DNA of 64,000 nt from Amphirosellinia nigrospora (Eukaryota > Ascomycota > Sordariomycetes > Xylariales > Xylariaceae): NCBI GenBank assembly GCA_004123355.1, contig SCHM01000001.1, forward strand, positions 4,456,001 to 4,520,000, written 5' to 3'. The position numbers and the translations under genes were made by a program. The notes under the pieces were generated by a model that was not told the DNA's origin, made no database searches, and saw nothing but the letters and a program-made list of their open reading frames with translations. Below, piece by piece: positions 7,656 through 58,265 of this stretch; position 1 is the first letter of the stretch; each line of letters opens with the position of its first letter.

Positions 7656-10899
<3,244 letters not shown>

Positions 10900-35754: not shown

Positions 35755-37387
35755 TAACAGCCTTTATCTTCACCATATTACTTCACTTACTTGTTGGGTA
35801 GTTATGCTGCTAGAGCAAGAGCTACACTCTCAAATACCTAAACATAATAGATGGAAGCGGAGGATATACCCAACGCTAACAATGGTGATGGAGATACCCG
35901 GGAAGCAATAGCTTACGTGATGGCTGGTGCCTTCGCGTGCTACTAGCTTTGCTTCTATCACTTATTTGTGCACGGAGTTTGGTTTTTATTGTTGCATGGT
36001 GTACCACAATGTGAACCCGGCAATATTTGAAATTGTCTGCTATCATCAAGGTCTTGGCATTTGGCCTCGGGGTCCTTGCCTCGATCTCGATTTTTCCACT
36101 TCTCTTCCCACAACTGTATTACTTATCCCCCCGTCGCCCGAAATGCGACAGATAGACAAAGCTGTCGCGTGTATTATGAACAACATCACAACAAACTAGA
36201 ACGGGGCACGACAAAACAGGACGAAAGAGATCACGCGCCGACGGAAAAACTAGGAACGGTGCTAGGGGACTGGCTGGTCCACAGGAGTTGAGTACACACG
36301 GGAACACTGAGTCCCTGGCAAGGTTGCGAGGTTTACAGCATATGCATAGATTCAGCGGTCGTGGTGCTTGCATTGATGGACTATATTTACTCGACATCAG
36401 AGCTGGACTCACCGGTGTTCGGGTTTCGAGCAATATTTGCGCCGGCGTTATGAGTGACGATGTGTTTCGCATGAACTACATTGGTTCTGACGCATGAGTG
36501 GTGATGGACGTGGCGCATCTCGTTTTCATAGGGTCAATGGGTTGTAAGATGGCGCGAGTTGGGGACGTAATGGCTTGGGCGCGAGTGAGTCCTCTGCACC
36601 ATGATTGTACCAATATGTATACGACACAGTAACGAGGGATGGGCTCGTTGGAATGATGCGCAGTCAGTTAGAGTTATATATCCTTGCAATCCATTTGCAC
36701 GCTCGCCTCGATAAAGTTAAACGTGGTAGTAGCAATAGGAGCATGTGTTTTAATATTAATATCCATACTTGTCACTTCTTGAGTCGTCAACTACCTAACA
36801 GGAGTTATTGGGCATTTAAGGTTCAATAGGCCGAGTCTCGTGGGATCTCGTTAGACGATGCTAATGCAGTTCACGGCGCGAAAACGAGAAGACTTAGAGA
36901 ACGAGACCTCTTAATGTAACTACTAGCGAGAGTAGAAACTTTTGGGAAATTTGATACTTATATCAGTCGCGGAGCAGCTGGTTGACCACCCACTCACTCC
37001 ACTGATTCTGACCAGGCTCTTGCAAGCCTCATCATAATGCCCCAGCTTCCCATTAACTGTCGGCACCGCGTCCGCATAGTGTCTACCCATAGATAGATTC
37101 TATCTGGTATTATTTCGGAAGGATCCCGGTGAAGAGTGCAAGGATAAATAAATCCCGATCTCCACGAGTCGTATAATTACGCACTCGATTTATATAAGCA
37201 AGGCAAAGGGGGGGGTTCCGGAACGACCTCCAGGATTTCTATTAGGCTTAATGCAAAACCGGATAGCCACGGCCCCTCTCTGTCGCGGAGAGTGAACAAG
37301 CTCTTCCAGTTGTAAATATGAACTCTTTACATCGCCAATGAACATTAGTTTCACGGCATTTTCCATCGGAGGTCGCTGCCATCGAGA
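35755..37387. other. Intergenic stretch
   Basis: This is the 3' region of the folliculin homologue followed by the upstream region of the GFA-domain gene. Only short, motif-free frames are seen. A TATA-like TTTATATAA lies near 37189, about 190 bp before the GFA start. Confidence 0.4.
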
Positions 37388-37828
37388 ATGACGACCACCG
37401 ACCAGTCGCAACCCCTCACGGTGCGCTGCCAGTGCGGGCGCGTCACATTTCCGACACCAACCCGAAACCCGCTAGCCATCTACCACTGCCACTGCACAGA
37501 GTGTCAGAGGCAGTCCGGCTCCGCGTTCGGGACGTCCGCCATCTTCCCGGCAGCCGGCCTGTTCCCGCTTTCGTCCGAGGTGGAGTCCAAGATCAAGAAG
37601 TACACGCGCGGCACAGACAAGGGGGACACGATGGACTGCTATTTCTGCACGGAATGTGGATCCCGTCTGTTCCATCGCATCGTGGGGAAAGACGGCATAC
37701 CTCGCGCGACTGTCAGTATCAAGGGCGGGTGTGTCCAAGGCTTGAACTGGTCAGGTGCTAGACATATCTATGTTCGTTCGGCCGTCATGGAGATTCCTGA
37801 GGAGTGGGAGACGTACGAGACAGTCTAA
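37388..37828 (+). CDS. GFA-domain zinc protein (GFA/CENP-V fold)
   Basis: An intact, intronless 146-residue protein with the complete GFA zinc pattern: RCQCGRVTF, HCHCTECQRQSGSAFG and YFCTECGSRLFHR. The conserved cysteines bind two zinc ions. The fold was first described in a bacterial protein reported to bind glutathione and formaldehyde. Most fungal members have no proven reaction. It is one of the few genes in the window without any frame break. I see no linkage with neighbours. Confidence 0.88.
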   Translation: MTTTDQSQPLTVRCQCGRVTFPTPTRNPLAIYHCHCTECQRQSGSAFGTSAIFPAAGLFPLSSEVESKIKKYTRGTDKGDTMDCYFCTECGSRLFHRIVGKDGIPRATVSIKGGCVQGLNWSGARHIYVRSAVMEIPEEWETYETV

Positions 37829-39417: not shown

Positions 39418-41015
39418 TCAGCCAATGCATCTGTGAGCCTTCATTTGATCAACACACTCCTGGACATCGCAACTATCAATGCAGCATGTCCTGCACCAAG
39501 GCTGCCCGGTCTCTCTCGACGAGTTGCCGCAGTTGAAGCACCACTGCGGGCGTACACCTTCCTTGTCAAATATACGAGATACCTCCCTCCTTCTCTCGAC
39601 GCCGTCCCGAGATAAGGCCCTCTCGAGTGCCTCCTTCGACACAAGATGCTGATCCATGCGCGGTAGCCATCTGACCCAATGGACCCAAGGCCCCGCATTG
39701 CTGGCGCCCATGGCCAGGAATGTGATGGCCACCTCCTTGTGTACAAAGAGGAAGGCGTCCAGGCCGCCAATGACGGCAAGCTCAGACTCATCTTTCGGGT
39801 CACCCGCCGCCGTCGAAGAGGCTTGGGCGATAAGCTCCTTCGCTCGCTTGGCCACCATGCTCCGCAGATACGTGCCGATGAGACGAGCGCGGCCGACCCA
39901 GTCGCCAGCCACGGCCATCTCGAGCACCCCTAGCGCATCGATCAGGACGGGCAGTTGAACGGCCTGCGTGACAACGGCCTGCCAATCGTAGATGGCCTGC
40001 CGGCGGCGGTCGAGCGCCACAATGCCCAAACGGCTTACAAGGGGCCGTCAAAGTTGATGGCGACGCCGTTGATGCCTAGGGCCTTGCCAAAGAATACGAG
40101 ATCGGGTTTGCCGCCGCTGCCGAAACAATCTCGGTATTCGGGTCGCTGGTGGGCAAAGGGAGCGCCGCACCTCAGTGCTGTGATGGTCTCATCGACCGCA
40201 ACGAGCAGGCCGTTGTCGGCGCAAGCTTGGCTGAGGTTGCGTAGCTCCGAGGGTGTCGTCACACGCCCGTTGTGCTGGTTGTTGACGATCTCAACCACCA
40301 CGCCAATGCACCCCTCTCGCTTCGCCGTCGCCAGGCGGGCAGACAGCTCCTCCTTGGTCTTTCCGACGAGCTCGACGCAGATACCGGGGCTGCCTGTGGC
40401 GTGGTCGCGCATGGCCGGTTGGGCACTGAGGTTAGCCTGAGGAAACGAACCCAGCGTTAGAAAGGCGTTCATGCTATTACAGCTTGGAACATATGTGACT
40501 TGCTATAGGGCCAAAGCCTGCGGCGTACGAGTCCTGGATCACAGCCCACCTGGGGTTGTCAAGATGTATCTCACTCCAGCCCAGCAAGGCAGCAAGCTCG
40601 ATTCGATTGAGAAGGCATCGCTCGTGGATGGAATCTGTGCTACGGCACTGCGACACGATGGCGAGTCGCATGAACATGCCGGCTATCGTAGTTGGACACA
40701 TGCCGTCCGTGACATGGCCGTGGAACGAAATGGGCATTGTGCTGCCAAAGAAATCTCTGATAACAGCAATGGCGACATCGCTCATCATCAGCTTATGCTC
40801 ACGAACTGTCACTCTGGGGTATTTCATGCCACGTACTCAAACCTGTCCATGTACTGGGACAGGATTTTCCCATAGCGTCTGCCCGTCTTGAGAGGATCGT
40901 CCCAGCTTTCCTGCATAATGGCACGGGCGACCGGACGGCATTGAAGCTCTGTGATGCCGAGCACTGAGCCCCACGTATTGTTGAAGTCGTGGTCAGGAGT
41001 GGCTGGTGTGTCCAT
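39418..41015 (-). CDS. Class III PLP-dependent aminotransferase-like protein with Cys-rich C-terminal tail
   Basis: The start at 41015 gives MDTPATPDHDFNN. Landmarks are FHGHVTDGMCPTTIAGMFMR, NPRWAVIQDSYAAGFGPI, and the cofactor region VAVDETITALRCGAPFA with Asp-Glu. The likely PLP lysine is in LVFFGKALGINGVAI. After a helical domain the protein ends with CFNCG, CRTCC, SCDVQEC and HRC, a zinc-binding-like cluster. An intron of about 44 bp fits at 40437-40480. Frame changes are needed near 40830, near the intron and near 40034 (one G missing between GPL and VSRLG). The family uses amino or keto substrates. The actual substrate is unknown. It shares a 730 bp divergent promoter with a methyltransferase. 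Confidence 0.68.
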
Positions 41016-41745
41016 TTTGCGTGAGGCGCCTGTCTGTTCAGACTATACTGCAAGTCATTCAGTTCATGAAGCCTAAACGGTCGGGCAGACAGACAAACGT
41101 GTTGACAGCGTGTTCTTGACTTGATCCTTTATGTGCATTATAATTCAATCGCCCATATAGCATATTCCTTCCTATTGCCTTGGCCAATGGGTCTACTATG
41201 GCTAATCCAATTGACGTAAACGCCCGTGATAGTCCACGTCAGTCACCATTTGACACAATCCTTCCGCCGATCACTATGGCAGCATGGTCAGCCAACTTAA
41301 TTAGAGCCATTAAGGAAGCGCCGTTCATATTACGTATCTGATGAACATACGATATTGGAGAAATATGTAGGGGTTTGATCACGCGTTGGGGCGACGGTGA
41401 GAGGATCAGCTATTTCTCAAGCAGGCTGCGACAGGCATAGCGAATGAGCTTCCCCTTCAGCATCTGCGTGACTACACCCTGTTGAGTGGTGCCGAACAAA
41501 ACCCCGCAGAGCCTGCATCCCCAGTACCGCAGTATTTATATTTGAGAGTCATTATATGGTCTCTCATGACGATCCCGCATCTATCCAACCTGCTGTTTCT
41601 CCTGCCCGTCCATATAGCCAAAGACCTTGTGCGGGCACTAACAGCGAGTCAACGAAGAAATCATGAGTCTTAATGTGAGTCTTGAGTCTTGAGTCTTTCA
41701 CTTTTACTATTTATTCTGTAGAACCAGTTGCTTACAGGTTAGAAT
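41016..41745. promoter_or_regulatory. Divergent promoter region, aminotransferase/methyltransferase
   Basis: This 730 bp stretch separates the two start codons (41015 minus and 41746 plus) and holds no credible gene. It must carry both promoters, which favours joint expression. No specific binding site is claimed. Confidence 0.5.
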
Positions 41746-42854
41746 ATGACTCCTAGCGAAGTTATCGATATCGGCGGCAGCCGACTGACAAGTCTATCAA
41801 GATGCTCTCCAAGCAGACTTCATGAATGACAGAAAGGTGTGGGGAAATACGTATCAGATATATTTGCCTTTGGCGACGGAGGCATAGAGCTCTGGAGAGA
41901 TGTTATAGCCTTGCCCGACTGGTATCAGACTCGAGAGGAGATAAGCCTTCTGCAGCAATACGGTCAGGATATTGCACGCCACGTACAGCCTGGCTCGAGC
42001 CTGGTAGATCTTGGCAGCGGGTAAGTTGCAAGTTGCCTAGTCTTTCACAGCAACAGACTGTAATCTGACGATCTGATCAAGGGACGTGGGTAAGATTCAA
42101 CACCTTTTGGACAATATCGAGACATTGCAGCGCCCAATTACCTATTATTCTCTCGATCTTTCCTGCTCGACCGTCTCTAGAGGCCTCGAGACTCTTTCGA
42201 AGCGCAAGTATCAGTATGTGAAACTTCTCGGCCTCTGGGGAACCTTCACCGATGCCAAGGCTTTTTTGGAAAAGCTTGAGGGTCCTCGCTTCCTCGTCTG
42301 TCTGGGGGCCGAGATCGGTAACGACCCGTTCGATTCTGCTGTGTCAGACTTGACCTCATGGGCATCTGTGATGCATCCCGAGGACCGACTGCTTATTAGC
42401 GTTGATAGCACTCAGGACAAAGACAAGATATGGCGAGCTTATCATGACAATGGCGGCGTAGTTGAGTCATTCATTAGACAGGGGATGGCGCGCACAAACG
42501 CCGTCCTCGGTCACGAGTGGTTTAACAACAGGGACTGGGTTCTTGAGGGCAAATTCTGGGACCGCCCTCTAGTCCATCGCTTCGTTTTGACCGCGGTGCG
42601 AGACGTTGTTTGCTCAGAAGTAGGGATTGCCTTCAAGAAAGGGGACAGGCTCCTATCATTTGAGAGCCATCGAAACACGCCGGCGGACATGAGACAGGTG
42701 TTTGTAGCATGTCCTCTGCAAGAACTCAAGTGCTGGAAATCACCAGATGGAGAATGCCGTAAGTCCCCATCGTTCGCTTCGTCTTATTTAATTTGCCGCT
42801 TTAGCACTAACGGATCATGCCGCAGACGAGTTTCTTCTTGCTCTCAAAGACTGA
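41746..42854 (+). CDS. Stand-alone EgtD/EasF-like SAM-dependent N-methyltransferase (histidine-specific MT superfamily)
   Basis: The protein starts MTPSEVIDIGGSRLT, typical of the fungal EgtD/EasF family. GGIELWRDVIALPDWYQTRE and the SAM loop SLVDLGSGDVGKI follow, then LLGLWGTFTDA, FLVCLGAEIGND and VLGHEWFNNRDW. Introns are exact: 42021-42081 (phase 2) and 42759-42825 (phase 1). The stop is at 42854. One or two frame changes are needed at 41795-41840. Relatives are EgtD, which trimethylates histidine, and EasF, which N-methylates dimethylallyltryptophan. In most fungi the EgtD domain for ergothioneine is fused to a sulfoxide-synthase domain (Egt1). Here no such domain follows, so an amino-acid-derived specialised metabolite is more likely than ergothioneine. 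That is inference. Confidence 0.78.
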
Positions 42855-43144
42855 ATACTACTCCTAGTCGCGCTCCGTTTTCCTCGTAGTTTTTAGTAAT
42901 AGGAACATCTCTACTATGTGGATACCTCCTTGTTGAATGAACCCGGTGCCGGGCTAGTCACTTAATACAGCAGGTATGGCAGTGTCATAGGATACGTACT
43001 ATCGCATGTATTATAGGAAAACAAGCCCTAAAGATATAATCATGTGCTCTTGCGCTGCTTTGTGTACAGCTAGAGCCTGTTATTATAGTAGTGAATGAAA
43101 CAAGAAATCCGCATACTGTATCTCCTTTTTTCAAGAATCGCAAG

Positions 43145-45477
43145 TCACGTCAAGCTCATCCAGCCCACCTGGTCCAACAGATATTCCACCATGTCCTCCC
43201 ACCATGCATGCCTCTGCCCAACAGCGACTTGTTCATCAAATGGGGCTCGAGGGCCCAAAGACATGTTCATCTAGCCATTTCCACAGCAATTGAACGGCAT
43301 TCCATACAGGAGGGACGTTCTGGGCCGAGACTTGTATTAGCTCACGATGCAGTGATAGCATGCCCGAAGACAAGGGCAGGGTGTATAATATCAGCAGTAA
43401 GGGGGTAAAAAATGAATCTTACCGATCTGCCTCCACCGGAAACTACGTTTTGGAACCATTCGCGTGCTATCGCTCGATCTCCTGGAGTGTAGGACATGAC
43501 GGCCATCAGAAACACCGGAAAGAAGGGCGACTGAGCCGTGAGCAATGGACCATCCTGAGGCAGGAGCTGAATACACCGACTCAGATCTTGCAAAGTGGAC
43601 CTCACATCGAGGTGTGATGGGGTTTCCTGGATAGAAATTAGACACAAATTCAATAGTTGCGGATATAAAGGTAGCCCCATTAGCTCTAGAGAAAGGGGAA
43701 AAGAAAAGTAAAAAGGTCGCAGAGAGTTCACAGACCTGAAGAATCGGCAGTGCAGGTAGATCTTAGCTGTACACAGCCATGCCTCACCCGACAGCTCGGT
43801 GACCTTGACGGGCGTGAAGACCTTGCCATGCTCGTCTAGCTCGCACGAGTCGAACAGAGCGGCTGCGGTCGCGTAGCCCTCAGAGAGCTCCGACCGCTGA
43901 CGGAAGGTGTCCAAAATCTGTTCCAGCTTTGAAGCGGCCATGGGAAGAATGATGGATTCTTGTGTCTCTTCCATTTCGGCACAGAGACGAGTGATCTGGG
44001 CCAGTATGTGGATGAGCTTGGGTGAGAAGCCCTTGGCTCCATAGATGGTGTGGGCCTCCTTTTTGGTGCCGCCCAGTAGCCACGAAAAATTGCGGTCGCC
44101 TGGTCGGGGTGGTAGGAGCGGAGACACCATTTCAGGGAGAATGCAGCCCACGGCGACGCAGGCCGACATACCGGCCCACGCCCGCGTGTACTGAACGTTC
44201 TCGGACTTCCAGTATCTATAGCCAGGATCCGAATGGTCGAGAATGGCTTTGGCTAGAAGATTGCCTCGGTGGAAATTGGGAATCTCTTCTTTGGGACGGC
44301 GCAACTCCCAAAATACTTCCTGTTATGTTTCTTGTGTTCAGGGATGGATTATACCTTGAAGCGAGGGCGCGCAACCTTACATCGTCAGCTTCCATCAAAA
44401 TGACTGAAGCAACAAGAGCCTCGCCCTTGCCTATCTCGTGGCACTCTTCCCGTGCCAGTGCTGCACTGATCAACTCTGATGCCTTGGCATAGTGGCGGCT
44501 GGTCCGCTTCCTGAGACTCTCATTCTGCACGTAGTCGAGGACGTAAGCCCCAGATAAGGCAAGGAGAGCCTCTTGGACGATAGGCTCCGTCTCTGCCATG
44601 GGCGCGATCTCTGTGAGCCAGAAGTTGTGCTTCGGGATCAAAGTTCGGCCTCGGCAATATGCCGTCAAGTCTGGCGAGCCGACGGTGCACAGGGTCAGTT
44701 TGTGTTTGCAAACGTGAAAACGGAAATGCGGGTAGCACTGATGGAGGGCACTGACAGAAAGTCAAGAGCTTTTGGTCATTGACGTCCAATTTTGAGCCTC
44801 TCCCAAAGTTGGAGGAAGCAGTGGCACAATTGCGTCCGGGGACTGCCTTCGTGTCACTGGAAACTTCTGATAGCGGCGGTGGTAAAAGCTAAGGGGCCTG
44901 ACACCGACAGAGTCATCAAAGCCCGAATCTGTCTGTTGGAGGCGAAATTTGATGTACCCGTTAACTTCCCCTTGTGCCGCGGTCTCGACGATGCCTCGTG
45001 CTTTATCGTACCTACCGATCGAACCTTCGGCAAACGGGTTCAGAAGACTGAGATTAATTTCACGGGAAGCTATTTCGGGGAGATTTGGGAACAAAACATC
45101 GGTGATTACGGACAGTTGAGGGGGATGTTTGACGAATCGGCCAAAGCAGCGATGTCATTCTCCCATCCTTGTCGAAGTTCTTCGGTCCCAAATAGCGTGT
45201 CGAAAACGATGGAATCCAAAGGTGCTTCTACCTCTTGGCCTGAGAAGCCGACAGAGAAGAATGATTGATCAGCCCATATTTCCTCATCGTCCTCGCCAAA
45301 AGAGTCCACTGGCAAAACGCTGGGTTGAGTGGCTATCTTGTGTACCCCAGAATGCCTAGAATGCCTCCCTTGGGCCTGACGTGCGGTTGGATGATCCACA
45401 TTGCGCCGTTTAGATCCAGCCAAGAGCCCACGGCTTGACGGCTCCGCTATTGCCTGCTCCGTATCTGACGAGGCCAT
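43145..45477 (-). CDS. Fungal_trans_2-type transcription regulator without a visible zinc cluster
   Basis: The C-terminal regulatory domain is clear: EPIVQEALLALSGAYVLDY, then EVFWELRRPKEEIPNFHR and DPGYRYW, PWLLGGT-like NFSWLLGGTKKEA, SPKLIHILAQITRLCA, and QSPFFPVFL before the end. Two introns fit exactly (44320-44380, phase 0, and 43341-43422, phase 0) and another is likely near 43625-43735. The C-terminus (WWEDMVEYLLDQVGW) runs to 43145 after one frame change near 43243. The N-terminus from 45477 keeps a KRRN patch, but the six cysteines expected for a Zn2Cys6 cluster are not there in any frame I read. The region around 44700-45100 also needs frame changes. It diverges from the C2H2 gene. 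Confidence 0.7.
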
Positions 45478-46002
45478 GGTCCAGTCGGAGGCTTAATTCC
45501 TTCTAGGCGTTGCTGTTTGACAAAGAGAAAGGGAGAACAAACACGTGTGACCCAGGGTAAGGCATCAGACGGAGGCAAACGGTAATCTCAGAGGCAGACC
45601 TTATATTGGAGAAACGAATAAGTCACTTGTTAACTACATTGGTCAACTCGCTAGCTATACGAACTTCTTCTTCCACGGCCTACCAGCGAGCATTTCCGAC
45701 TGGACACTTGTATCGATCTGACATGCATTGGTAGTGAGGCAGGCTGCCTAGGATCGGTATCAACCGCGGGGTATTGCATGACCCCAGCTTACTGCTTCTG
45801 CGCCCGAGTTGTGTGCATGCTCGCCTCAGATTTCAGAAACAGAAATAAAACACCCCAACCCCCGTCAAGTTTTCTCATTTCTCCTTTCTCATTTCTCTTT
45901 TCCCCTTTCCCCTTTCTCCTTTCTCGTTACTCATCCTCGCTTACCCCTTTCGGCTTTTTCCCTTTCTATTTGTCGCTCCCGGCCGCGGCTGGACGCGGCC
46001 CC
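45478..46002. promoter_or_regulatory. Divergent promoter region with pyrimidine tract
   Basis: This lies between the start of the Fungal_trans_2 regulator (45477, minus) and the C2H2 protein (46003, plus). From 45869 to about 45930 it is almost pure C/T, built from TTTCTC/TTTCCC units. This is a common fungal core-promoter feature, here probably for the C2H2 gene. Part of this tract recurs elsewhere in the window (see findings). Confidence 0.55.
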
Positions 46003-47050
46003 ATGGCCTTCCCACCGCCCATGGAACACACATTTCTTGGCAATGCAGCCGACAGCGAAGATCTCTCAAATATAATGCTGGCGCACCTACCTGAGATTGT
46101 AGCCGGACTGCCACCGCCAGAGTCGGGCACCGGCTGCTTGTTGGCCGACATTGGCAACTATTTAGTAAGGTCGGTGGTGATCCTATCTCGACTAAGTGCT
46201 GTTCTCGCCAATGGGGATCACATTAGGACATATGCCAAGCACGGAATTGAGTTCGTCTATCAAGGGACCGAGTTCTCGGATCTCGAATTCACGTATTATA
46301 TGAACAGCAAGCATCAGTCGCTTCGGTAAGCATTGTCCATGCTACCTAACCTAAGTTCCCTGCACCTGTCAGGGGAAATTATGGCATGAGTCCTTGAAGC
46401 CTTAATAACTCGAACACTTGGTCGCAGACGTATAGCCACGCAAATCGAAGACTCCGCCCGAGGTGTTGAAAGTCAGTGGGAAAACAGCAGAACGCCCCCC
46501 GATATAGTCAAGTCGTTTGGAAAACGTTCTGCCACAGCCGGTAGCTTTTCAACCGAAGCCAACGCGGTCGAGTGTGGACCAATGAATGACGCAGACCCTG
46601 GAAGTGGCGGAGCCGCCGGTGGTAGCATTTCTTCGTCAGATACCATGATGAGTGGTTCATCAGAACCGCCCTACTCAACGGAAGATGCTGCGCAAGCCTC
46701 AATTCAGCGTCATTTGAACTCACTTGCCGCCAGTGTGAGAGGTAAAGGCGATTACTATTGTCCGCTCGGGTACAGTGCACCAAAGGCGGTGTTCTACCAG
46801 ACGGCACAATTGTAATGTTCAAGCGGAATTCGGCTTTTAAGTAATCCTATCCCTCCTGGCCACGAGAGCCCTTTACTAACTGATGGGTTACTAACCTGAT
46901 ATGGCATGAAACAGAGCACACCTGCAGAAGCATTTAAAGGGTTTTAAGTGTGACATTCCGGGCTGCAAGAACAAGAAAGGGTTTGCTAGAGTAGATCAAT
47001 TACAACGACATCGAGAGAATGTTCATTATTCGGGCATTACTGGCACATAG
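46003..47050 (+). CDS. C2H2 zinc-finger protein
   Basis: Of several upstream starts, ATG 46003 (MAFPPPMEHTF) is preferred because the codons before it translate the promoter-like C/T tract. Introns fit at 46326-46427 (phase 2) and 46841-46914 (phase 2). The C-terminus has two zinc-finger units: YYCPLGYSCTKGG...FKAHLQKH, and FKCDIPGCKNKKGFARVDQLQRHRENVH with canonical Cys2-His2 spacing. The middle is Ser/Gly rich and disordered. One frame change near 46773 is needed inside the first finger (one T missing from AGTTGC). A DNA-binding regulator is likely. Its divergence from another regulator suggests a local regulatory pair. Confidence 0.72.
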
Positions 47051-47748
47051 GCACCTCGCCTAGGTCTGGTGCCTGGATTTCAACGTTTAAATTCAGGACT
47101 ATTGCTTACTTAAAAGTCTGTAGGGTTGACGAAATAACAACAGGCTTTAGGGATTGGCCGGGTAAGAAGTATTGAGTTAGTGATACCTAATGGATCTTAG
47201 ATCACGAAGGCTCGCGATAAAGAGTGAAATATGACATATAACGATATAGTTGAGCTAATTAATTATAATAAAATAAGTAATATAACCTCCTTATAATATA
47301 TATATTGAACGCCTTATGTTCTTACATATTTCTAATGAGAAGGGGTGAGTAAAAAAGAGAAAAGAGAAAACACGGCTAGGCCTAAACGTTCCTTGAAAAA
47401 AGGAGAAATGAGAAAACAAGAAACTGTGATTCAAGGCGGAGTGTGTCCAAAGTAGAGGAAACAATCTCGTGGCTCTCTGTATTCCAGGATGGACATGATT
47501 AGCTTTAATGTTTAAAAGCTAGTCGTTTCTCAATTTTTTTGGTCAAAATGTTGACGATTAATGTTCAAAGGAGGCAGATCAACTCATGGCTGAACGTCGT
47601 TAAGAGTACTACTTATGTTCGGTCTAGCAAATCTTCGTCATCAACCACTGCTGTTCATAATACTAGGTACAACACCTGCCTACAGCCGACGTGCATAGCA
47701 AAGCAACCAAACGCATAAGAGGTACATACTTTGTCACTTCTTGTAGCC
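47051..47748. other. Intergenic stretch with purine tract
   Basis: AT-rich at 47240-47310. At 47351-47417 it carries GA-rich tracts that are reverse complements of the C/T tract upstream of the C2H2 gene. No gene is supported. Confidence 0.45.
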
Positions 47749-48081
47749 ATGTCTGAGTCTCCATCCACAAGCTCAGCAGGACGGACAGGGTCGCTAGCTT
47801 GGGAGACCAGGGTCCCCAAAGCCATTCATCCACCAGCCATGTCACGGTGGCTCGGAGAAAAACCGCACCAGGCTAGCCCTATTGAGGGGCTGTTCCCGCG
47901 AGCACCACGCCCAGAAACCTCGAAAGTGGAACATAGGGCTGAAGCTCGTCTGGTAGAAGGGGTTTCAGACCGCGACAGACAGCTGTTGTTAAAAGGCATG
48001 TGTCGCTGCCAGCAGCATTGCAGTGAGCCGACACTTTGGTACGTTGGTGGTGCATTCGAAGACCTTCCCCATCACAGGTAG
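47749..48081 (+). CDS. Hypothetical protein, about 92-110 residues
   Basis: An uninterrupted frame from ATG 47749 encodes MSESPSTSSAGRTGS, a Pro/Arg-rich middle and a C-terminal CRCQQHC cluster. It has no recognised domain. It could be a real small gene, one exon of a larger gene, or chance. Codon usage is compatible with coding, but there is no independent support. Confidence 0.3.
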   Translation: MSESPSTSSAGRTGSLAWETRVPKAIHPPAMSRWLGEKPHQASPIEGLFPRAPRPETSKVEHRAEARLVEGVSDRDRQLLLKGMCRCQQHCSEPTLWYVGGAFEDLPHHR

Positions 48082-48767
48082 ATGCGCAGATTTCTCAGTA
48101 GTCGAATCGACTTGGGGACTGATTGACTGTCTTTTATTTAAAGGGTTCGAGTTGGTGGCTAGATTAAGCGTTTCTGGCGTATGGTGATGGAGTCCGAGGG
48201 TTAGGGGTGGTCAATCTCTTGTATGTCATAATTCTCATTGCATGTCGAGAAGAATCGAGGTGTGCAAGGCAAATGTGAGGTGGAAACACCTTATCATTAG
48301 CTGGAAAGCCTTGACTTCCTATACCTCTTCGATTTATCTGCTTTCGGTGATCTTGCGGGCTATTCACTATAGTTATACAGGTAATGATATAAAAGACGGG
48401 AATATCTAGAAGCATGATTCCATGTTATTCAAAGTTTACCCCTTAAATCACAGCCTAGTAACTAGGTACTTGGTTAATAGTAGGGGCTGGCTTATCGATG
48501 GGTTCTATTCAATCCAATGGATTGATTGATCTTATCACCCCTATTATGAGCTCCTTTATTCATAGACAAGTTTAACCAAATGAAGGAGAGTTATGTTATA
48601 TGCCTGCTGATGATAGCTGGATTATGTGAGAGATAGCTCCACTAACCCTGTTAGGTAGTATCTTATATAGGTAGCGCTTCCTATTTCGTCCTGGCCAGAA
48701 AAGGGACGGACCCACAGGACCTGCTCCACTACATACTAAGTACGTAAGTACATAGTATGTACCTAGT
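48082..48767. other. Intergenic stretch
   Basis: No gene supported. Close to the SDR stop (48725-48770) lies a palindrome-rich TACTAAGTACGTAAGTAC-like segment of the kind that recurs in other intergenic regions here. Confidence 0.4.
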
Positions 48768-49841
48768 TTAGTATGTCAACTTCTCGCCTGTCCACTTCAC
48801 ATAGTCGCCGCTCTCAAAGCCTTCGGCTTCCTCTGTGCCCAGTTTCTCAATAATCTCCACGAGCCCCTCCATGCACGTGTCCATGTCGTCGCCTCCATGA
48901 AAGTCTGTCATCTTAGTCGGAAGCCAACCTGGATGCACGCCAAGCGTGACTACCTTGGATCCTGTCTCGTGCAAATCGATTGCCATGTTTTTGGTGAGCT
49001 GGTTCAGTCCCGTCTTGGATACGCGGTACGGCGCGTTGCCGCCGTAGTTTCGGGCGACGCCGGCCATGTTGCCGGGAAAGGTGATGATTTTGCCTAGCGC
49101 CGAGCGTGACAGCGCTGGGAGGAACGCTTTTGAGGCCAAGAAAGGACCCTTGGTGAAATCGGTAAGAAACGCGCCGAAAACCCAAACAAAGCAAAGCGAT
49201 GATGGAGTACTTACCAGTGTGTTGACGTTGAAGTGGCTCACAAAGTCTTCAGCCGTCATCTCGTGAAAGCGCTTGTTGTCCCAATCAAAGTAAATTCCTA
49301 TCACAGTTCCAAGTCAGTGATTACAGGTCTAGCGGTAAAACTCAAGCGCCCGCGCAAGGTGTATTTATCGTAGTACCGGCAACGTTGACGAGCACATCTA
49401 GAGAGCGTTCACCGTATGCATCGGCAGCAGCATTGATAGATTTCTCGTCAGTGAGATCTACTTCAAACGTCTGGACCCCTTGCTTCTTGAGCTATCAAAA
49501 TGCGGACGTAATCATTAGCTGTTGAACGCGCACTAAGGATCGGGGGTGGAAACTTGGGGACGGGAACTAAAGACGGGCCCGGAGCAATATGGATACAGTG
49601 TGGGGTTTGCATACCTCAACTACGGAGGTGTCATCCCTGGTCTGTGGTCGGTACGTGCCAAAGACTTCGTAGCCCCGGGCTTGGAAGCGGTTTGCAAGCT
49701 CCCTTCCGATGCCCCGGTTCGCCCCTGGTCAATCATGAAGCGAGGTCAGTAAAGTATTTTATATCGTCAACTAGTGCAGGGCCGCGGAAAGTTAGAAAAC
49801 AAGCAAGTACCGATAATGAGAATGGTTTTGATGAGGTTCAT
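48768..49841 (-). CDS. Short-chain dehydrogenase/reductase, intact, five exons
   Basis: Five exons (49811-49841, 49615-49724, 49377-49491, 49215-49297, 48768-49148) total 720 bases and encode 239 residues with no frame break. The cofactor motif is GANRGIG and the NAG motif is NVAG. The Tyr/Lys pair is YRVSK. HPGWLPTKM is the usual C-terminal anchor. The strand where the catalytic Ser normally sits reads IITFPGNMAG, with Gly at the expected Ser position. The intron at 49149-49214 is 66 bp with no stop, so it is easily missed. The reaction is probably NAD(P)H-dependent reduction or oxidation of a small carbonyl or alcohol. The next gene upstream, on the same strand, is the flavin amine oxidase. 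Confidence 0.82.
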
Positions 49842-50430
49842 GGTGTTTCTTGTAGTGAAAAGGTATCGAGTGTTAACTTGCTGTGCCGTTCCAAGGCTGG
49901 ATATGGAAATTAGAGAGGGCCCGGGTGCGTGGGATACAAAGGGGAAATGGATGTCTTTTATAGGCGATGCGGCGCTGAGGCCATTGAAGGCTGCCACTGT
50001 AATTCATGCAAGTACCTCTTACACTTCCATACCTACCTGCTAGTGGGCACAATTATATCATGGACCCAAAGTCACCCATCGAGCCTGCTGTCGATGTCAG
50101 GTAGGGTAAGTAAGCGATTGGAGAAACCAAAGAACCTAGAACAAGAAGCTGGGCGGCACTAAGCACATGGAAATATCGAAGAATTGGTACCTGCTGCTGA
50201 CTGCTGTAAATAAGTACGCTAACGCCTTAATATAGCAGGTAATTCTCCTTTAAGGCTTCCCCGAACAGCCACGACGCTACCCATATGGGTTACACCTTAT
50301 ACATGTTTTTTTTCATGGTGCATTTTCTCATCACGACTCTCAATACCACGGATTACTTGTTCAGAGGCACATGCCAATACATAGACACTGTAATTTCCCG
50401 TAATATGCACAGGAGATACAAGTTTGTCCA
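49842..50430. other. Intergenic stretch
   Basis: Upstream region of the SDR gene and 3' region of the amine oxidase gene, both on the minus strand. No motif is recognised. Confidence 0.4.
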
Positions 50431-51870
50431 TCACCAGAGTTCCTTCAAGTCTCTCTTGGGTGCAAACTGAGGAGAATTGTCCCCCTCGTCAGGGCGGTCC
50501 CAGCCAAAGCGCTTCGCCATGTCTTCATCCAGCTCACCCTGATCATCTGAAGGACAATATCACCTACGACTGGTACAAATTTAAAGCCATGAAATGATCC
50601 ACCACCAACAACGTAAAGGTTGTCGGAATGCGGATGTGGGCAGATGATGAAGTCTTGGTTTGGCGTGTAGCCATCCCTAGTGAGTCTCAGACGGGCAACC
50701 TTCGCCAGCTTCGCTAAGGCTACTAAGGTGTTCCTTACTTACCAGCACATGCGATACTTGTTGGGTTCTAACCCCTTGATCCGGTCTCCATAGAGCTCCT
50801 TTTGCACTGTGTGAAGCTCGCCCTTTAGGACCTGAGGCATATCCTGTGACCATGTTAACTGACTTGTCGCAGATGGCGGGATCGATAAATGTTGTTTCGA
50901 TTTGTCGTGGTACACGGTATTGCTGAATCCGGTGTCGTGCGTACATTTCAGCACCTTGTTGTTCCCTGGAGGGATGGATTCGGCTGTAGCAACGAATGGT
51001 CAGCGGCGCGCCACACTCGAGAGCAATAACAGAAGTCAGCATTAGGGAGACGAGACCATCTAGCTTCGCCAGTAAAGCCATGACGGGACATTCTCCAAAC
51101 TTGTCCATCTCGCCGTCCGGGACCGTGTAAAGACACATCGGAGCCGCGGTCGCAACTAGTCGATGGCTAGCGTGAATCTCTGGTCTGTCAGGAGCGCTTT
51201 CGGCAAGAAGATATGGTATGAATGCTCCGGCTGCGAGGATGGTTCTATCTGCAAGGACTGTCCGCCCGTCCAAGGTCTCGGCTCCAATGCATGAGCCTTG
51301 TTCATCAAAGAGTAATTTGGCTGCGCCAGTATCGAAATAATTGACACCAAGGTCGATGGCAGCCTGAATAACAGTCTGAAGCACGGCAGCAGAATCGGCC
51401 CAGCCTGCAGTGGGACTCCAGAGCGACTGGGTGGCCATGGTCCAGTCTGCATTCCGGAAAATGCCACCGAACCGTGACTTGGCTTCGGCGGGATCAAGCA
51501 GGCTGGATGGGGCGTTGCCCTTGCCACACAAGAACTCCCAGTTGGCCATGATTTTAGTCATATATGCCTTGTCATAGGCGTAGAGCAGGCCGACTTTGTG
51601 GAAGTGTTGGCTGTAAAGGGGATCTTTGGTCCACGACTCCATTGCCTTGACCGCAAGCTTCATGTACATAAGATCGCCGTAGTCGCCTCGACAGAGCTTG
51701 TTGACATCGTGCCCGGCTGCATAGGGACAAGGGAATGGTGTGCGATCCAAGACGGTGACGTGGGAGTCGGGTGCCCACTTTTTTAGCGACAGGGCTGTCG
51801 GAGCGCCAAATGCGCCAGCGCCTATGACAAGCCATGATCGAGGAACGTCAGCATGCTGACTTGGGGCCAT
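50431..51870 (-). CDS. MSOX-family FAD-dependent amine oxidase (sarcosine/saccharopine/fructosyl-amino-acid oxidase type)
   Basis: The N-terminus reads WLVIGAGAFGAPTALSLK, the FAD-binding dinucleotide fold, followed by VTVLDR. GLLYAYDK and WADSAAVLQTVIQAAIDLGV match the MSOX family. Towards the C-terminus come KYRMCW/DGYTPNQDFIICPHPH, with the Cys that binds FAD covalently in this family, and GGGSFHGFKFVPVVG. One intron at 50677-50742 (66 bp, phase 2) fits exactly. Frame changes are needed between 50960 and 51070 and near 50545. The coding end is at 50431. The family oxidises secondary amines or N-substituted amino acids to imines, releasing hydrogen peroxide. It diverges from a D-amino-acid oxidase. 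Confidence 0.8.
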
Positions 51871-52548
51871 GTTCGCGGTAGGAGGTAAGTAGACGTGGAA
51901 TAGTTGGATGGATCGAGGCGGCCGAAGTCCTATTTGCGATGGAAGCTTAGAAACAAGGCGAAGTGCAAGTCGATGCCTCCTTAAGTACCTGTAACCAAAA
52001 TCCTACAAGCCACTCCCGCCGGCGGGGGGCGTATCTTCCCTTTCCCCTTTTCTCTTTTCTCTTTTCTCATTTCTCTTTTCTTCTTCTCACCATTGTGCTA
52101 CTACACTAGCAAAAAAAAAAAAAGATTACCATGTACATGCACCTACGCGGTGAGAGATCTGCAGAGCGATTCTCGATCACTTCCTCATAATGCCCTTGTC
52201 ACAAGACCCTGCACTGGAGCTTCTGGTATGAATTCAACACCCAGTGTATCGAGAGTCGCCCCTGCTGCCTTGGGAATCGCACGCCTTGTCTCCTGGGTGA
52301 ATATATCTCAAATTATATGTTTTCTCATTTTTTGAGTAGCATGCGTCGAGGCGCGATAGGCTGACCGACAGAATGCCTTACACCCCTATCAATTTAGTAC
52401 ACCCATTGCTCTCGAGACAGACAGGCAATCATGACGGCGCGAGGTGAATCAGGTCCCGTCTACCCGAGAGTGTGACTATATAAATGCTTCAATCGGACAC
52501 CTGTCTGGTAATGATTCTCTGTCCAGAAACGGGCTGCCATCAATAATC
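51871..52548. promoter_or_regulatory. Divergent promoter region, amine oxidase/D-amino-acid oxidase
   Basis: A 678 bp region between two flavin oxidase starts. A C/T tract at 52036-52088 lies on the amine oxidase side. It is followed by an A run near 52112-52124. No gene is supported. Confidence 0.55.
52476..52485 (+). promoter_or_regulatory. TATA box candidate for the D-amino-acid oxidase gene
   Basis: CTATATAAAT lies about 65-70 bp before the ATG at 52549, at a distance typical for fungal TATA elements with short leaders. Confidence 0.45.
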
Positions 52549-53982
52549 ATGTCTCTCGATTCAAGAATCGTGGTTCTTGGGTAAGAGAATATAACTACTC
52601 TCTAAATTACAACATTGCCGTCGATCCACTAACATTAACGTAGGGCAGGCGTCCTGGGGCTCACGACCGCCCTTCAACTTACCCGCAAGGGCTATAAGCA
52701 TATTTTGGTCGTTGCCAAACACATGCCAAGTGACCATCATCTGGATTATTGCAGTTCCTGGGCAGGAGTGAATTGGATTCCGTAAGGACCTACCCCAGTC
52801 CCATCCATCTACCGCTCAAACACCATACCTATGTACTAAGTGGTCCTCTGAAGTGTCTCAGAGGAAGGATCGAAGAAGCTCGGTGGGATCTGGAGACATG
52901 GGATGAGCTGATTCGCTTGGCCAAAGACGTCCCTGCCGCAGGGGTGTGGATATCTGGTAGGCTTTGTCATCGCAAACCCCGAAAGCTCTGATGCTAACAG
53001 CCCATATTATCTCCAAGATAAAACGGTCTATGGTAGAGACCAGAACAAAATGGAAGAGTTGCAGGCGATGTGGTACAAGGATATCGTCTACGATGTGAGA
53101 ACCTGTTCCACTTGCCTTCCTCTTCCTTCTTCAAGTTTTCTATCCACCATTCTAACGAAACGTCGGGCGGGCTAGTTCTCAATGCTGGAAAAGCACCAGG
53201 TCCCTCAGACATCGCGGATTGGGGGATGTTCTTTCGCACAATTGGACTGGATCCCAGTATTTACCTCACTATCTACAGGCTCAGTGTCTCTCTGCGGGGT
53301 TAAGTTCCGCCGACACACCATCGGGCACATTCGCGAGGCCTTCACCGCCGATAACAGCAGCAACAGAGGTACAACACCACTGATGGATGTAGCTGATGGT
53401 GGTGAATTGCACAGGACTCTGGGCTTCCAAATTGGGTGGTGTTATGGATGGTCTGGTTAGGCCTATGCGAGGCCAACTTGTCATTGTCGAAAACGAGAGC
53501 AACGGCCAATACCGCTATCCGTACCAACGATATGCGAGCAGACATTGGGGAGTCCTGCTATATCAAAAATCGTCCTGCTGGTAAGATATCTATATTTGTT
53601 AGTATTATATTCGAACTTCTAACAAGTTGCTTCGACAGGTGGCGGAACTGTCTGGGGGGCTGCTTTGATTTGAGTTCGAGCTGGAATCAAGAGCCCGACA
53701 TGGCACTGGCCAGAGGATTATGGAGCGTGCAGTGAAGCTCTGTCCACAACTTGTGCTTCTGGTTGTGGTGCTGAGGCTTGCGCGTCGTCAGACATCAGGT
53801 TGGTCTGCGGCCTTTCCGAGAAGGGGGGCTCGAATCGAGCGCGATATCCTTGAGACGACGGGCTTGGGCCGCTAAGAATCGTGCACTGCTATGGCTCTGG
53901 TAGCTTCGGCTTTCAGGCGAGCTACGGCATAGCGAACAAAGCAGTTATGCTAGTAGGCGAGACTCTCGCGGCGAAGTCTTAA
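52549..53982 (+). CDS. D-amino-acid oxidase
   Basis: The first exon (52549-52580) encodes MSLDSRIVVLG and joins in phase to AGVLGLTTALQLTRKG. This gives the FAD-binding GxGxxG, followed by VVAKHMPSD and YCSSWAGVNW. Later blocks are EARWDLETWDEL, VVNCTGLWASKLGGV, RPMRGQLVIVENES and GGCFDLSS. QVGLRPFREGG contains the substrate-binding Arg, and VHCYGSGSFGFQASYG leads to the stop at 53982. At least five short introns are present (52581-52643 is clear; others start near 52782, 52950, 53094 and 53582). A few frame changes are needed. The C-terminus ends AKS, which is close to but not a standard peroxisomal SKL. The enzyme deaminates D-amino acids to keto acids with hydrogen peroxide release. Confidence 0.82.
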
Positions 53983-54849
53983 TCACTGGATCAGGGGGTT
54001 ACTGTGTCACGATTTTCAGTTACATGTTGGAATGCCCCAAGGCGAATGATACAGTCGGCGCCTCCAGATCAGCCCTCGTCTTCAAATGTCGTCGGCTTGT
54101 CTTGGCTTGCCTTGTACACTCCCTACAGTGCCAATGGATCACCCCAGATTGATTGATTGATTGATAGTGGTGAACGTCATAGGAATACTAAGTATGCTAA
54201 GCTACCTAATATCCAAACCCCCTTAAGGGTATTGGACGTGGCGATCTATTCTATTATATATTATTATGACGGCTATAGCAGCTAATTTTTAGTTTGAAGA
54301 GCGTGCTATGTTATAACTCCTTGTTTATTTTTTAGGACTACCCCGTCCTCGTCCTTCCCTTTCTATTCCCCCCCCCCCTTAAAAGTTTCTCCCTTTTTAC
54401 TCTCGCAACAAAGCCATAGCCCGCCCATCACAGAAGTCATATCTCAGCCCATACTACGCAGCCTTTGTGACAAGGACTTGCGCTCAACCGCTTGGAATTC
54501 GGAGCTCAATTCTGCTAATAATATCTTGGGGGTCTCTAGGGGCTCTGGCTTCTTTCACGCCTGCCGTCAATTCATAGACGAATTCCTGGGACTTCTGCCC
54601 CCTCGGTAGACCTCCGAGAGTATAACTCCTCGAGAGGGGTTAAGGCTGTTCTAATCAATGCTATTGCACCAATATACGTGTCTCAGCTCACGGAAATAGT
54701 CGGAGTGATATCGGCCTTCCAGGACCTTCCAGGAGTCTCTAGGAGTCCGTATGGCTCCCGTGGCTAAGTCTTGTGGCTGGTTCATGTGACAGTTTTATCC
54801 TTGAAGACCCGCCTTGGACAGGTTTATGAGTGGATTACAGTCAACGAAG
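53983..54849. other. Intergenic stretch with simple repeats
   Basis: A short GATT/ATTG tandem repeat lies at about 54147-54165 and a run of about eleven Cs at about 54368-54378. AT-rich at 54240-54320. No gene is supported. Confidence 0.45.
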
Positions 54850-56037: not shown

Positions 56038-56946
56038 GCCAAGCTTAACTGAGTGACCCGGCATTTGGCAAGGTATTTCAATCTGTAAGAGTACAATGAT
56101 TTGCTTTGGGATGAGATAAAGTTTGAAACGGGACTCAGAGTTAAGCCACGACGGGCATAAGTTCCGCGATAGCTTTTGTCACGGAGATGTGGAGTCTTTA
56201 TACCGTTGTAGCCATATGGCGACAACGGCGTCGTTTTGTCCGTCACAGTTTTCCTGTAGCAATAAACACAGACAGGCACGGGAATACGACCAAGAGGTTC
56301 CATATGATGTGCACTTCTAAACAATTGGTTCTCTACGGCACGCTTTAGGGTGCTTGGTGTGATAAGACTTTATAATTATTCATATGATTATAGGGTCTCT
56401 GATTTCCTTCTTCCCTTTACAACTCAACCTCGCTTATGCCATTATTATGAAACAGATCTTGAAGCCCCCCTTCTCCCTAAGACCTCCGGGCGCAGGCGCT
56501 TCGAGAAGAGTCCGCACTATACGTGGCTAATTCGATCAACGCTCCTTTTATCTTCTTCCATAAGTCTCGAACTTTAAGGGCTCGAAAGCGTGTCGTAAAA
56601 AGGATAATTGTGCGGCGTAGCAGATGTTAGATCTATAGAACTAATGCCCTCTGCGGGAACTAATAGGGCCCCGTCCACTTCTAGCCAATTATGTGCCCGC
56701 CAATACGATGCTCCACAGCCTATTTCTGTATGGCCATCTTGTTCGCAGCCAATAGGAGAATAATGAATACGACTAGTATACGGATGGCTAACCAATGACG
56801 GCTGTGCAGTTCCTCGCGACTGTTGGTTTCACTTCCAACCCGAGATGGGACAGGACCGTTTCCTCACTTCTCTTCACTGTATTATCAGTCGCCTCGGGTC
56901 TTCGGTGCTACAGAGTACGTGCGTACGGGGATCCGCGAAGGCCGCT
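56038..56946. other. Intergenic stretch
   Basis: Upstream region of the Zn2Cys6 regulator. Short frames on both strands have no motif. Confidence 0.4.
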
Positions 56947-58265
56947 ATGCAAAGAAGATCAGCCAAAAAGTCCAGACATGGCTGCAAAGAATGCAAGCGG
57001 CGTCACGTGAAATGCGACGAGAGTAAACCCTCCTGCGTCAATTGTAAAGTCCGTCAGTCGCCGTGCTCGTTTCTCTCCAGTCTTTCTATCCCACCACCAA
57101 GGTCCACTACCTCCACGCCATCTCCGAATCCGACAACTGCGTCTGGGTCCCACCCGTCGCCGGCAGAGCATGTGGCCCCATATACTGCTAAAGTCATATC
57201 GCCCCCGAGTTCTGACCATGAATTGGCCGCTCCTTTGTCTTTGTCCCATGCCGGGCCAACGTTCACAATTAGCTCTTTGATCTCGACGGATTATTCATTC
57301 AAACTTCATCACTTAGAGCTCCTACATAACTTTAGAACGGGTGTGCTAGGGATCAACATTCCGGATTCCGCTGCGCTTGATGGTTATATGGCCATGACGG
57401 TCGGGGAAGCCGCTCAAGCCCCATACTTGATGGACCAAGTCCTTGCTATATCGGCAGCCAATATGAGCACCAAGCGACCACATCAACGGCGCTTTTATGA
57501 GAAAGAGGCGACGCATCTACAAACCCGTGGGCTCGCCTCATTCAACGCCGCCCAAGCTGCAGCCGATAACTCCTTGGCCGGCTTCGTCTTTTCCACGCTT
57601 CTCTCACAGCAGGTCCTTTTTGACGCCTTTTCAACCCGCGCTGATTTCCCGACGTTTCTGGATAGGTTGGTGACCTCGTTCCATATCTGCGGCGGCGTGC
57701 GAATCATGACGGGGAAATCGTGGCCATATATCATGGCCCAATATCGAAAGCAAACCGGGATAAGTCTCCCTGGGAATTCCTAGCTGGCAGCGGCCCTGAG
57801 AACTTGCTTACGATGAAGCTGTCTCGGTTAGAGAGCCTACTTGCAGCAGAAAACCTTTCTCCGTCTGTATTAGATCCTTGTAACACTGCTCTACGCTTGC
57901 TGCGAGATATATCATATGCACCATCGCCAGACCGCCCGCGTTTCTCAACCATCCGAACTGTCCGCGTGCTTCAGTGGGCGGTGCAAGTCCCACCTGATTT
58001 CATTCAACTTCTAGAGCAGCGGCGACCCGAATCCCTCGTTATAACGGCCTACTATGCGTTGCTGATACATGATACAAAAGATTACTGGGCATATGGCGAC
58101 GCTGGTGCTTTCATGATCCGATCTATTACGAAATTCTTGGGAAACTATTGGGCCGATTGGCTTGCATGGCCAAATGAGGTGTTGGACTCAACAAACCCTA
58201 CCAATGGGGCGGGATCCTTGCCAATAGACATAGGTATGCAGTACAGGATAGACGAGCTGACGTGA
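56947..58265 (+). CDS. Zn2Cys6 fungal transcription factor
   Basis: ATG 56947 is chosen because it places the DNA-binding domain at the N-terminus: HGCKECKRRHVKCDE then PSCVNCKVRQSPC, a complete six-cysteine binuclear cluster with its basic patch. A Ser/Pro-rich linker follows, then a helical C-terminal domain starting near FKLHHLELLHNF with YLMDQVLAISAANMS and LASFNAAQ. This is the pattern of the fungal regulators whose C-terminus resembles sterol-uptake-type factors. One frame change between 57725 and 57780 separates the two halves. The second half (WEFLAGSGPENLL onward) continues to 58265. Target genes are unknown; a kinase and a glutaminase lie downstream. Confidence 0.8.

Follow-up and report, generated by a model that had tools for sequence, protein, structure and literature searches.

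Seven genes lie side by side between 39.4 and 54.0 kb of the window, by which we mean the whole 64,000-nucleotide stretch of a fungal contig that was analyzed, and we propose, tentatively and with a probability of roughly 40%, that they form a small gene group lacking an NRPS or PKS and acting through a common pathway to modify one alpha-amino acid. The neighborhood itself is real: every gene that an earlier note on this DNA had described as clustered could be located in the sequence. Gene starts, splice junctions, and changes of frame were assigned by visual inspection, and the joint function of the seven genes was judged from this one genome only. The features are as follows.

39418..41015, minus strand: AT, a divergent PLP enzyme resembling class III aminotransferases, with a Cys-rich, MYND-like stretch at its C-terminus
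40757-40836 and 40437-40503: inferred introns of AT, the second of which would be GC-AG
41016..41745: AT/MT divergent promoter, with ATATTGGAGAAA at 41352-41363
41746..42854, plus strand: MT, an EasF-family SAM methyltransferase (Methyltransf_33), with an apparent frame switch in its N-terminal part before ~41,850
43236..45477, minus strand: TF, a Fungal_trans_2 protein, 3' end inferred by eye
45478..46002: TF/C2H2 divergent promoter, with ATATTGGAGAAA at 45603-45614
46003..47050, plus strand: C2H2-type protein, with one or more C-x4-C...H-x4-H fingers toward its C-terminus, by eye
48768..49841, minus strand: SDR, a short-chain dehydrogenase/reductase with five manually assigned exons and no visible frame switch
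50117-50126: ATTGGAGAAA upstream of SDR
50431..51870, minus strand: MSOX-superfamily oxidase of the amadoriase / fructosyl peptide oxidase type, with an apparent frame switch near its C-terminus
52549..53982, plus strand: DAO, a D-amino-acid-oxidase-like flavoprotein with several apparent frame switches
54466..54791, plus strand: dispersed repeat at the right edge, with at least 39 further genome matches at 69-83% identity

The three divergent pairs reported earlier are present, their inferred starts being 730 bp (AT/MT), 525 bp (TF/C2H2), and 678 bp (MSOX/DAO) apart; by simple arithmetic, three divergent pairs out of six adjacent ones, against about 1.5 expected, is not above chance. The group had also been said to lack an NRPS or PKS; a Pfam scan of a subset of the window's ORFs returned no match to either and none to an NRPS-like enzyme domain. 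No tRNA gene was found in the window. We found no second copy of the cluster in the genome: TF has no other match there, SDR has one weak match, and the neighbors of AT's paralogue differ. A literature search, conducted largely outside subscription papers, found no description of the seven-gene set.

The methyltransferase is the gene on which the proposal leans most. MT passes the EasF-family model TIGR03439 with 236.4 bits (curated cut-off, 205.55; its largest single open piece alone scores 170.2 bits), and its gene model, which is without the N-terminus, fails the EgtD model TIGR03438 (123.8 bits against a cut-off of 290.9). No other stand-alone Methyltransf_33 gene was found in the genome; the second locus of this family is Egt1 on contig C5. 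We compared the MT pocket with EgtD chain 4pip and with the genome's own Egt1. In the alignment, MT keeps N166 and Y206 of EgtD, presumably the carboxylate contacts, and thus resembles Egt1/EgtD in both family and carboxylate binding. It departs from them at positions 282 and 56, where MT has F and W and the genome's Egt1 has E and Y, and no sulfoxide-synthase domain was seen beside MT. The 4pip chain itself has A at 282; we take the wild-type residue to be E and to contact the imidazole. EgtD M252 could not be placed confidently on MT, since phmmer pairs it with V and MAFFT with a gap. Given the F at 282 and the W at 56, histidine is an unlikely substrate, and the predicted pocket fits some other alpha-amino acid. 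A comparable fungal enzyme is TrpM of Psilocybe, an N,N-dimethyl-L-tryptophan synthase of methyltransferase family 33 (PMC12603985). Likened by description, TrpM and MT would both be fungal family-33 enzymes acting on a non-histidine amino acid, which for MT is a prediction.

The enzyme identities given in the earlier note were largely borne out by family searches, with one recast and one resting on motifs. The plain "MSOX" label can be made more specific: the gene matches PF01266 (80.9 bits) and resembles amadoriases over its full length (110.2 bits to 5t1e, residues 12-396), and it keeps a Cys in an RMCW motif aligned to MCW, which we take to be the covalent FAD site. From these matches, it is an MSOX-superfamily oxidase of the amadoriase-like type. 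It differs from the oxidase of the fumisoquin (fsq) clusters in being closer to amadoriases (110 bits) than to FmpA (70 bits), which we take to be FsqB. The first two exons of DAO match PF01266 with 30.1 bits (cut-off, 27.9) and a middle piece with 24.3; this family is broad, so the name D-amino-acid oxidase rests on motifs recognized in the sequence. SDR matches adh_short with 111.8 bits.

AT scores 21.9 bits against Aminotran_3 (PF00202), below the gathering cut-off of 30.5, and its paralogue scores 33.8. Its PLP Lys (FGKALG) and Asp (VDET) align with BioA-type class III chains, and this region aligns with GSA aminomutase as well, whereas the N-terminal half of AT is unmatched by either enzyme, the Cys-rich tail is extra, and the scores are weak. 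A reading of AT as an MppP-like arginine oxidase (E 0.004) was dropped because BioA-type class III enzymes come out on top in a profile search. Comparison with the paralogue (G000:C1:7909641; 36% identity over the whole alignment) suggested that one of the AT frame breaks is likely an intron; one frame switch, near 40,040, stays in the model. The paralogue has a Cys-rich tail too, so class III-like PLP enzymes with such a tail, in at least two copies in this genome, constitute an uncharacterized enzyme type that merits a structure. One scan for bacterial or archaeal relatives with two peptide patterns matched 28 stretches, none of which was confirmed (0/28).

The claim of two local regulators stood in part. 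TF's best piece matches Fungal_trans_2 (45.5 bits; cut-off, 21), but TF is without a visible DNA-binding domain, no Zn2Cys6 motif being discernible on visual inspection of its N-terminal open frame. The C2H2 call consists of one finger motif read by eye, and the two scanned pieces of this gene, both other than the N-terminal one, had no Pfam match. As a sign of co-regulation, we considered a putative element, ATTGGAGAAA, present in three of the four promoters and missing from that of MSOX/DAO. The motif was chosen post hoc, after inspection, and its sharing is suggestive only, because a 10-mer is likewise common to three of four sequences in 25 of 400 random sets of non-coding-like sequence (10/400 for unrestricted sets). 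With 9-mers, this is so for 74 of 400 non-coding-like sets, and the observed number of 9-mers shared in this way is reached by 14 of 200 random window sets. Across 48.1 Mb, the 12-base form was counted 13 times and a reversed control pattern six times; two of the 13 lie here, 4.25 kb apart.

The gene identities, the layout, and the altered MT pocket residues are observed, and from them we infer a substrate, an order of steps, a mode of regulation, and a joint working of the genes. MT would N-methylate an amino acid other than histidine, probably an aromatic one; the MSOX/amadoriase-type oxidase, with its covalent flavin, would oxidize the resulting secondary amine beside the nitrogen to yield an imine or aldehyde; trimming or reduction of the products would fall to the PLP enzyme, the D-amino-acid-oxidase-like enzyme, and SDR; and the Fungal_trans_2 and C2H2 proteins would regulate the group via ATTGGAGAAA elements. 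We counted in favor of such a pathway MT's EasF score, changed pocket, and status as sole stand-alone copy found; AT's PLP Lys/Asp match; the oxidase's amadoriase resemblance and Cys; the element in three promoters; a repeat relic on the right side; and the gene association in fumisoquin clusters. Those clusters carry an N-methyltransferase gene together with ones for a fructosyl-amino-acid oxidase (FsqB) and a transcription factor (PMC5999785), much like the N-methyltransferase, fructosyl-amino-acid-oxidase-type enzyme, and transcription factor found side by side here. They also contain an NRPS-like enzyme, an ATP-grasp protein, a transporter, and a phenol hydroxylase, none of which was recognized in our group. 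Against the pathway we counted the post hoc motif, its absence from the MSOX/DAO promoter and its poorer performance in looser controls, the other neighbors of AT's paralogue, TF's lack of a visible DNA-binding domain, and the large size, in fungi, of the SDR, FAD-oxidoreductase, and regulator families.

Cluster-finding programs easily miss groups without an NRPS, PKS, terpene, or prenyltransferase core, and to our knowledge few members of MT's methyltransferase family have been assayed so far. If real, the group would offer a testable core-less example and a new substrate for that family. FsqB is believed to convert its substrate's N-methyl group into an electrophile that brings about ring closure or cleavage. 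A bolder version of the common pathway, improbable in our estimate, would be a core-less alkaloid-type cluster in which the EasF enzyme with its rebuilt pocket N-methylates a free aromatic amino acid, the amadoriase-type oxidase uses its covalent flavin to make the N-methyl such an electrophile with no NRPS, the finger-bearing class III-like PLP enzyme adds or removes the alpha-amino group, and the regulator acts at ATTGGAGAAA.

The seven genes could instead be chance neighbors, accessory-type members of common fungal families with separate jobs in a gene-sparse stretch beside repeats, and we hold this at a little short of even odds. AT's paralogue is flanked, by eye, by quinone-reductase-like, tyrosinase-like, and ankyrin-like frames, which implies that this type of enzyme can do without such partners; the best MSOX paralogue is on a different contig, with no cluster partner recognized by eye nearby (L026 2000-6000, minus strand only). 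The promoter element is rare only marginally, and the orientation pattern is ordinary. Chance accounts less readily for five chemically compatible enzymes around the only stand-alone EasF-family gene found, or for an element present in three of four promoters.

We think it doubtful, and no better than unlikely, that the two flavoenzymes, the PLP enzyme, and SDR form a catabolic or detoxification unit degrading N-methyl amino acids or Amadori compounds, with MT unrelated. The MSOX-type oxidase is indeed nearest to fructosyl peptide oxidases, and two of its pieces give weak scores of 39.4 and 40.3 bits, against a cut-off of 257, to an N-methyl-L-tryptophan oxidase model. At 37.3 kb there is a gene of the GFA family, whose name refers to the handling of formaldehyde, but GFA proteins are common in fungi, and MT and AT have a promoter region in common.

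Very unlikely, in our view, is a remnant or split-off of an ergot-type alkaloid pathway, in which MT would be the EasF (the dimethylallyltryptophan N-methyltransferase of ergot clusters) of a prenyltransferase encoded elsewhere. MT's score and sole-copy status would suit this, and prenyltransferase (Trp_DMAT) loci do occur in the genome, at least four of them, but none of the four is in the window, the nearest on the same contig is ~3.5 Mb off, and no ergot set was recognized in ~20 kb around each (ORFs of at least 150 aa, first 90 residues each, judged by eye rather than by family search). Ergot clusters differ in gene content as well, since the window has no Trp_DMAT match and no other ergot gene was recognized by eye in it.

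A decaying, non-functional cluster of pseudogenes is likewise very improbable: at least five of the seven genes (AT, MT, TF, MSOX, and DAO) have apparent frame switches that no visible intron accounts for, but switches also occur in two genes for the RNA polymerase second subunit, on C8 and C6 (2 and 5 switches in 1069 and 1057 bp, with no intron room), and in a beta-galactosidase in the window (at least one). Since essential genes of this assembly are affected, the switches in the cluster are no evidence of pseudogenes and point to assembly errors; contrary to that reading, the domain of a third RNA polymerase gene, on C1, matched in one piece.

The dispersed repeat begins 0.5 kb past the right end of the group, and its copy number is a lower bound, 40 of 138 candidates having been scored. 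When the intergenic stretches were compared by BLAST with the retrieved loci and the flanks of the window, no repeats were detected at the left edge or in the middle; the search returned only the right-edge repeat, a 44-base match within the same stretch on the right, and one self-overlap.

The gene group lies on contig C1 of the 48.1-Mb, 11-contig assembly, whose rDNA spacer has an ascomycete look and may be of Xylariales type. We read the region from 39.4 to 54.0 kb in six frames, built spliced models by hand, introns being present in the window's genes, and searched the gene pieces against Pfam, NCBIfam and PDB sequences. All seven genes that the earlier note had grouped as a candidate core-less amine-modifying cluster were located, although two corrections were needed, one to the regulator TF and one for apparent frame switches.

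Genes of the group and related features (window coordinates unless a locus is named).
39418-41015, minus: divergent class III aminotransferase-like enzyme (AT)
41746-42854, plus: EasF-family methyltransferase (MT)
43236-45477, minus: protein with a Fungal_trans_2 match (TF)
46003-47050, plus: C2H2 protein, one finger, read by eye
48768-49841, minus: clear short-chain dehydrogenase (SDR)
50431-51870, minus: MSOX-type oxidase, nearest to fructosyl peptide oxidases
52549-53982, plus: D-amino-acid-oxidase-like flavoprotein (DAO), found in pieces
54466-54791: dispersed repeat, ~330 bp, 0.5 kb beyond the last gene
L024:4046-5660 (extracted locus, also on C1): AT paralogue with the same Cys-rich tail

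Family matches, or for AT the alignment of its PLP residue, largely bore out the identities proposed for AT, MT and SDR; DAO matched the broad family PF01266 and is D-amino-acid-oxidase-like by its motifs. AT scored 21.9 bits against the class III aminotransferase model (cut-off, 30.5) and its paralogue, 36% identical overall, scored 33.8; in a search with a profile of these two sequences, BioA-type enzymes ranked first, and the PLP lysine and cofactor aspartate of AT aligned with theirs. A Cys-rich tail (C-x2-C ... C-x2-C ... C ... C ... H ... C) closes both copies; in our view it resembles a MYND finger, and the Pfam search returned no MYND match for either. The MSOX-type oxidase belongs to the proposed family but has its best match among fructosyl peptide oxidases, at 110 bits and nearly full length; FmpA scored 70 bits and the highest-scoring sarcosine oxidase 38. 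It retains the cysteine to which FAD would be bound. A GFA-family gene (formaldehyde-activating type; 37349-37825) lies just left of the group, adjoining enzymes that could release formaldehyde.

Methyltransf_33 matches (METHYLTRANSFERASE) were found at two loci in the genome, MT and a gene on contig C5. MT exceeded the cut-off of the EasF-family model (236.4 bits; cut-off, 205.55) and failed that of EgtD (123.8; cut-off, 290.9). In the C5 gene the next domain resembles ergothioneine/ovothiol sulfoxide-synthase models, with scores under the respective cut-offs, and we take the gene for a putative Egt1. When both were aligned to EgtD (letters from chain 4pip), positions 56 and 282 were W and F in MT, which kept N166 and Y206; in Egt1 they were Y and E, and its 206 region was not alignable. 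The 4pip chain itself has A at 282; wild-type EgtD reportedly has E there, and Vit et al. in 2015 are said to have assigned roles to the pocket residues. Because N166 and Y206 are kept and positions 56 and 282 are replaced, the substrate of MT is likely an alpha-amino acid and unlikely to be histidine.

At least four Trp_DMAT prenyltransferase loci exist in the genome (C1:1000873, C1:898262, C6:718241 and C7:597438; surroundings read by eye only). The window contains none of the four, and on its contig the closest is ~3.5 Mb away, so the group is not an ordinary ergot cluster. Ergot clusters are known from Hypoxylaceae (PMC8403587) but differ from this group. Its nearest known parallels are fumisoquin clusters (PMC5999785) and TrpM (PMC12603985).

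A common pathway for the seven genes is possible but unproven, and we put its probability at about 40%. Counted in its favor were compatible chemistry, the compact layout, a common promoter element and the repeat at the right side, for which 39 or more additional genomic matches were counted (69-83% identity). Against it, the MSOX/DAO promoter lacks the element, the AT paralogue has other neighbors (quinone-reductase-like and tyrosinase-like frames, by eye), and the group's families other than that of MT are common.

The element, ATTGGAGAAA, lies upstream of AT/MT, TF/C2H2 and SDR. Three of the four copies of its 9-base core in the window fall in these promoters; four copies were reached in 1 of 100 shuffles. 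Genome-wide, there are 13 copies of the 12-base form and 6 of its reversed control. The controls are sobering. Among random sets of four equal-length stretches, scored for a k-mer common to three of four, a 10-mer was found in 25/400 non-coding-like and 10/400 unrestricted sets, and a 9-mer in 74/400 and 44/400, respectively. At least as many 9-mers as observed turned up in 0/100 sets of first-order resampled sequence, but in 14/200 sets of real window sequence.

Five or more of the seven genes seem to change frame without a fitting intron, as pseudogenes might; the breaks were judged by eye and, in AT, with the paralogue as a further guide. Yet essential RNA polymerase second-subunit genes do likewise, with five switches in 1057 bp on C6 and two in 1069 bp on C8, where profile pieces abut or overlap; a third copy, on C1, gave a one-piece match with one stop flagged. 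The window's beta-galactosidase also has at least one switch, near 9.34 kb. Since these genes switch frame too, the assembly seems to carry many small insertion/deletion errors, and the group's breaks are therefore no firm evidence on function. We set the pseudogene reading aside; such claims from this genome need care, small indels apparently being common (window near 9340; extracted loci L027 and L029).

Of the two proposed local regulators, TF has its Fungal_trans_2 domain but no visible Zn2Cys6 motif, and the C2H2 protein is recognized by its single finger. Some 2.8 kb to the right of the group, a regulator-like frame (56767-58262) that matches Zn2Cys6 (Zn_clus) could be the group's true regulator.
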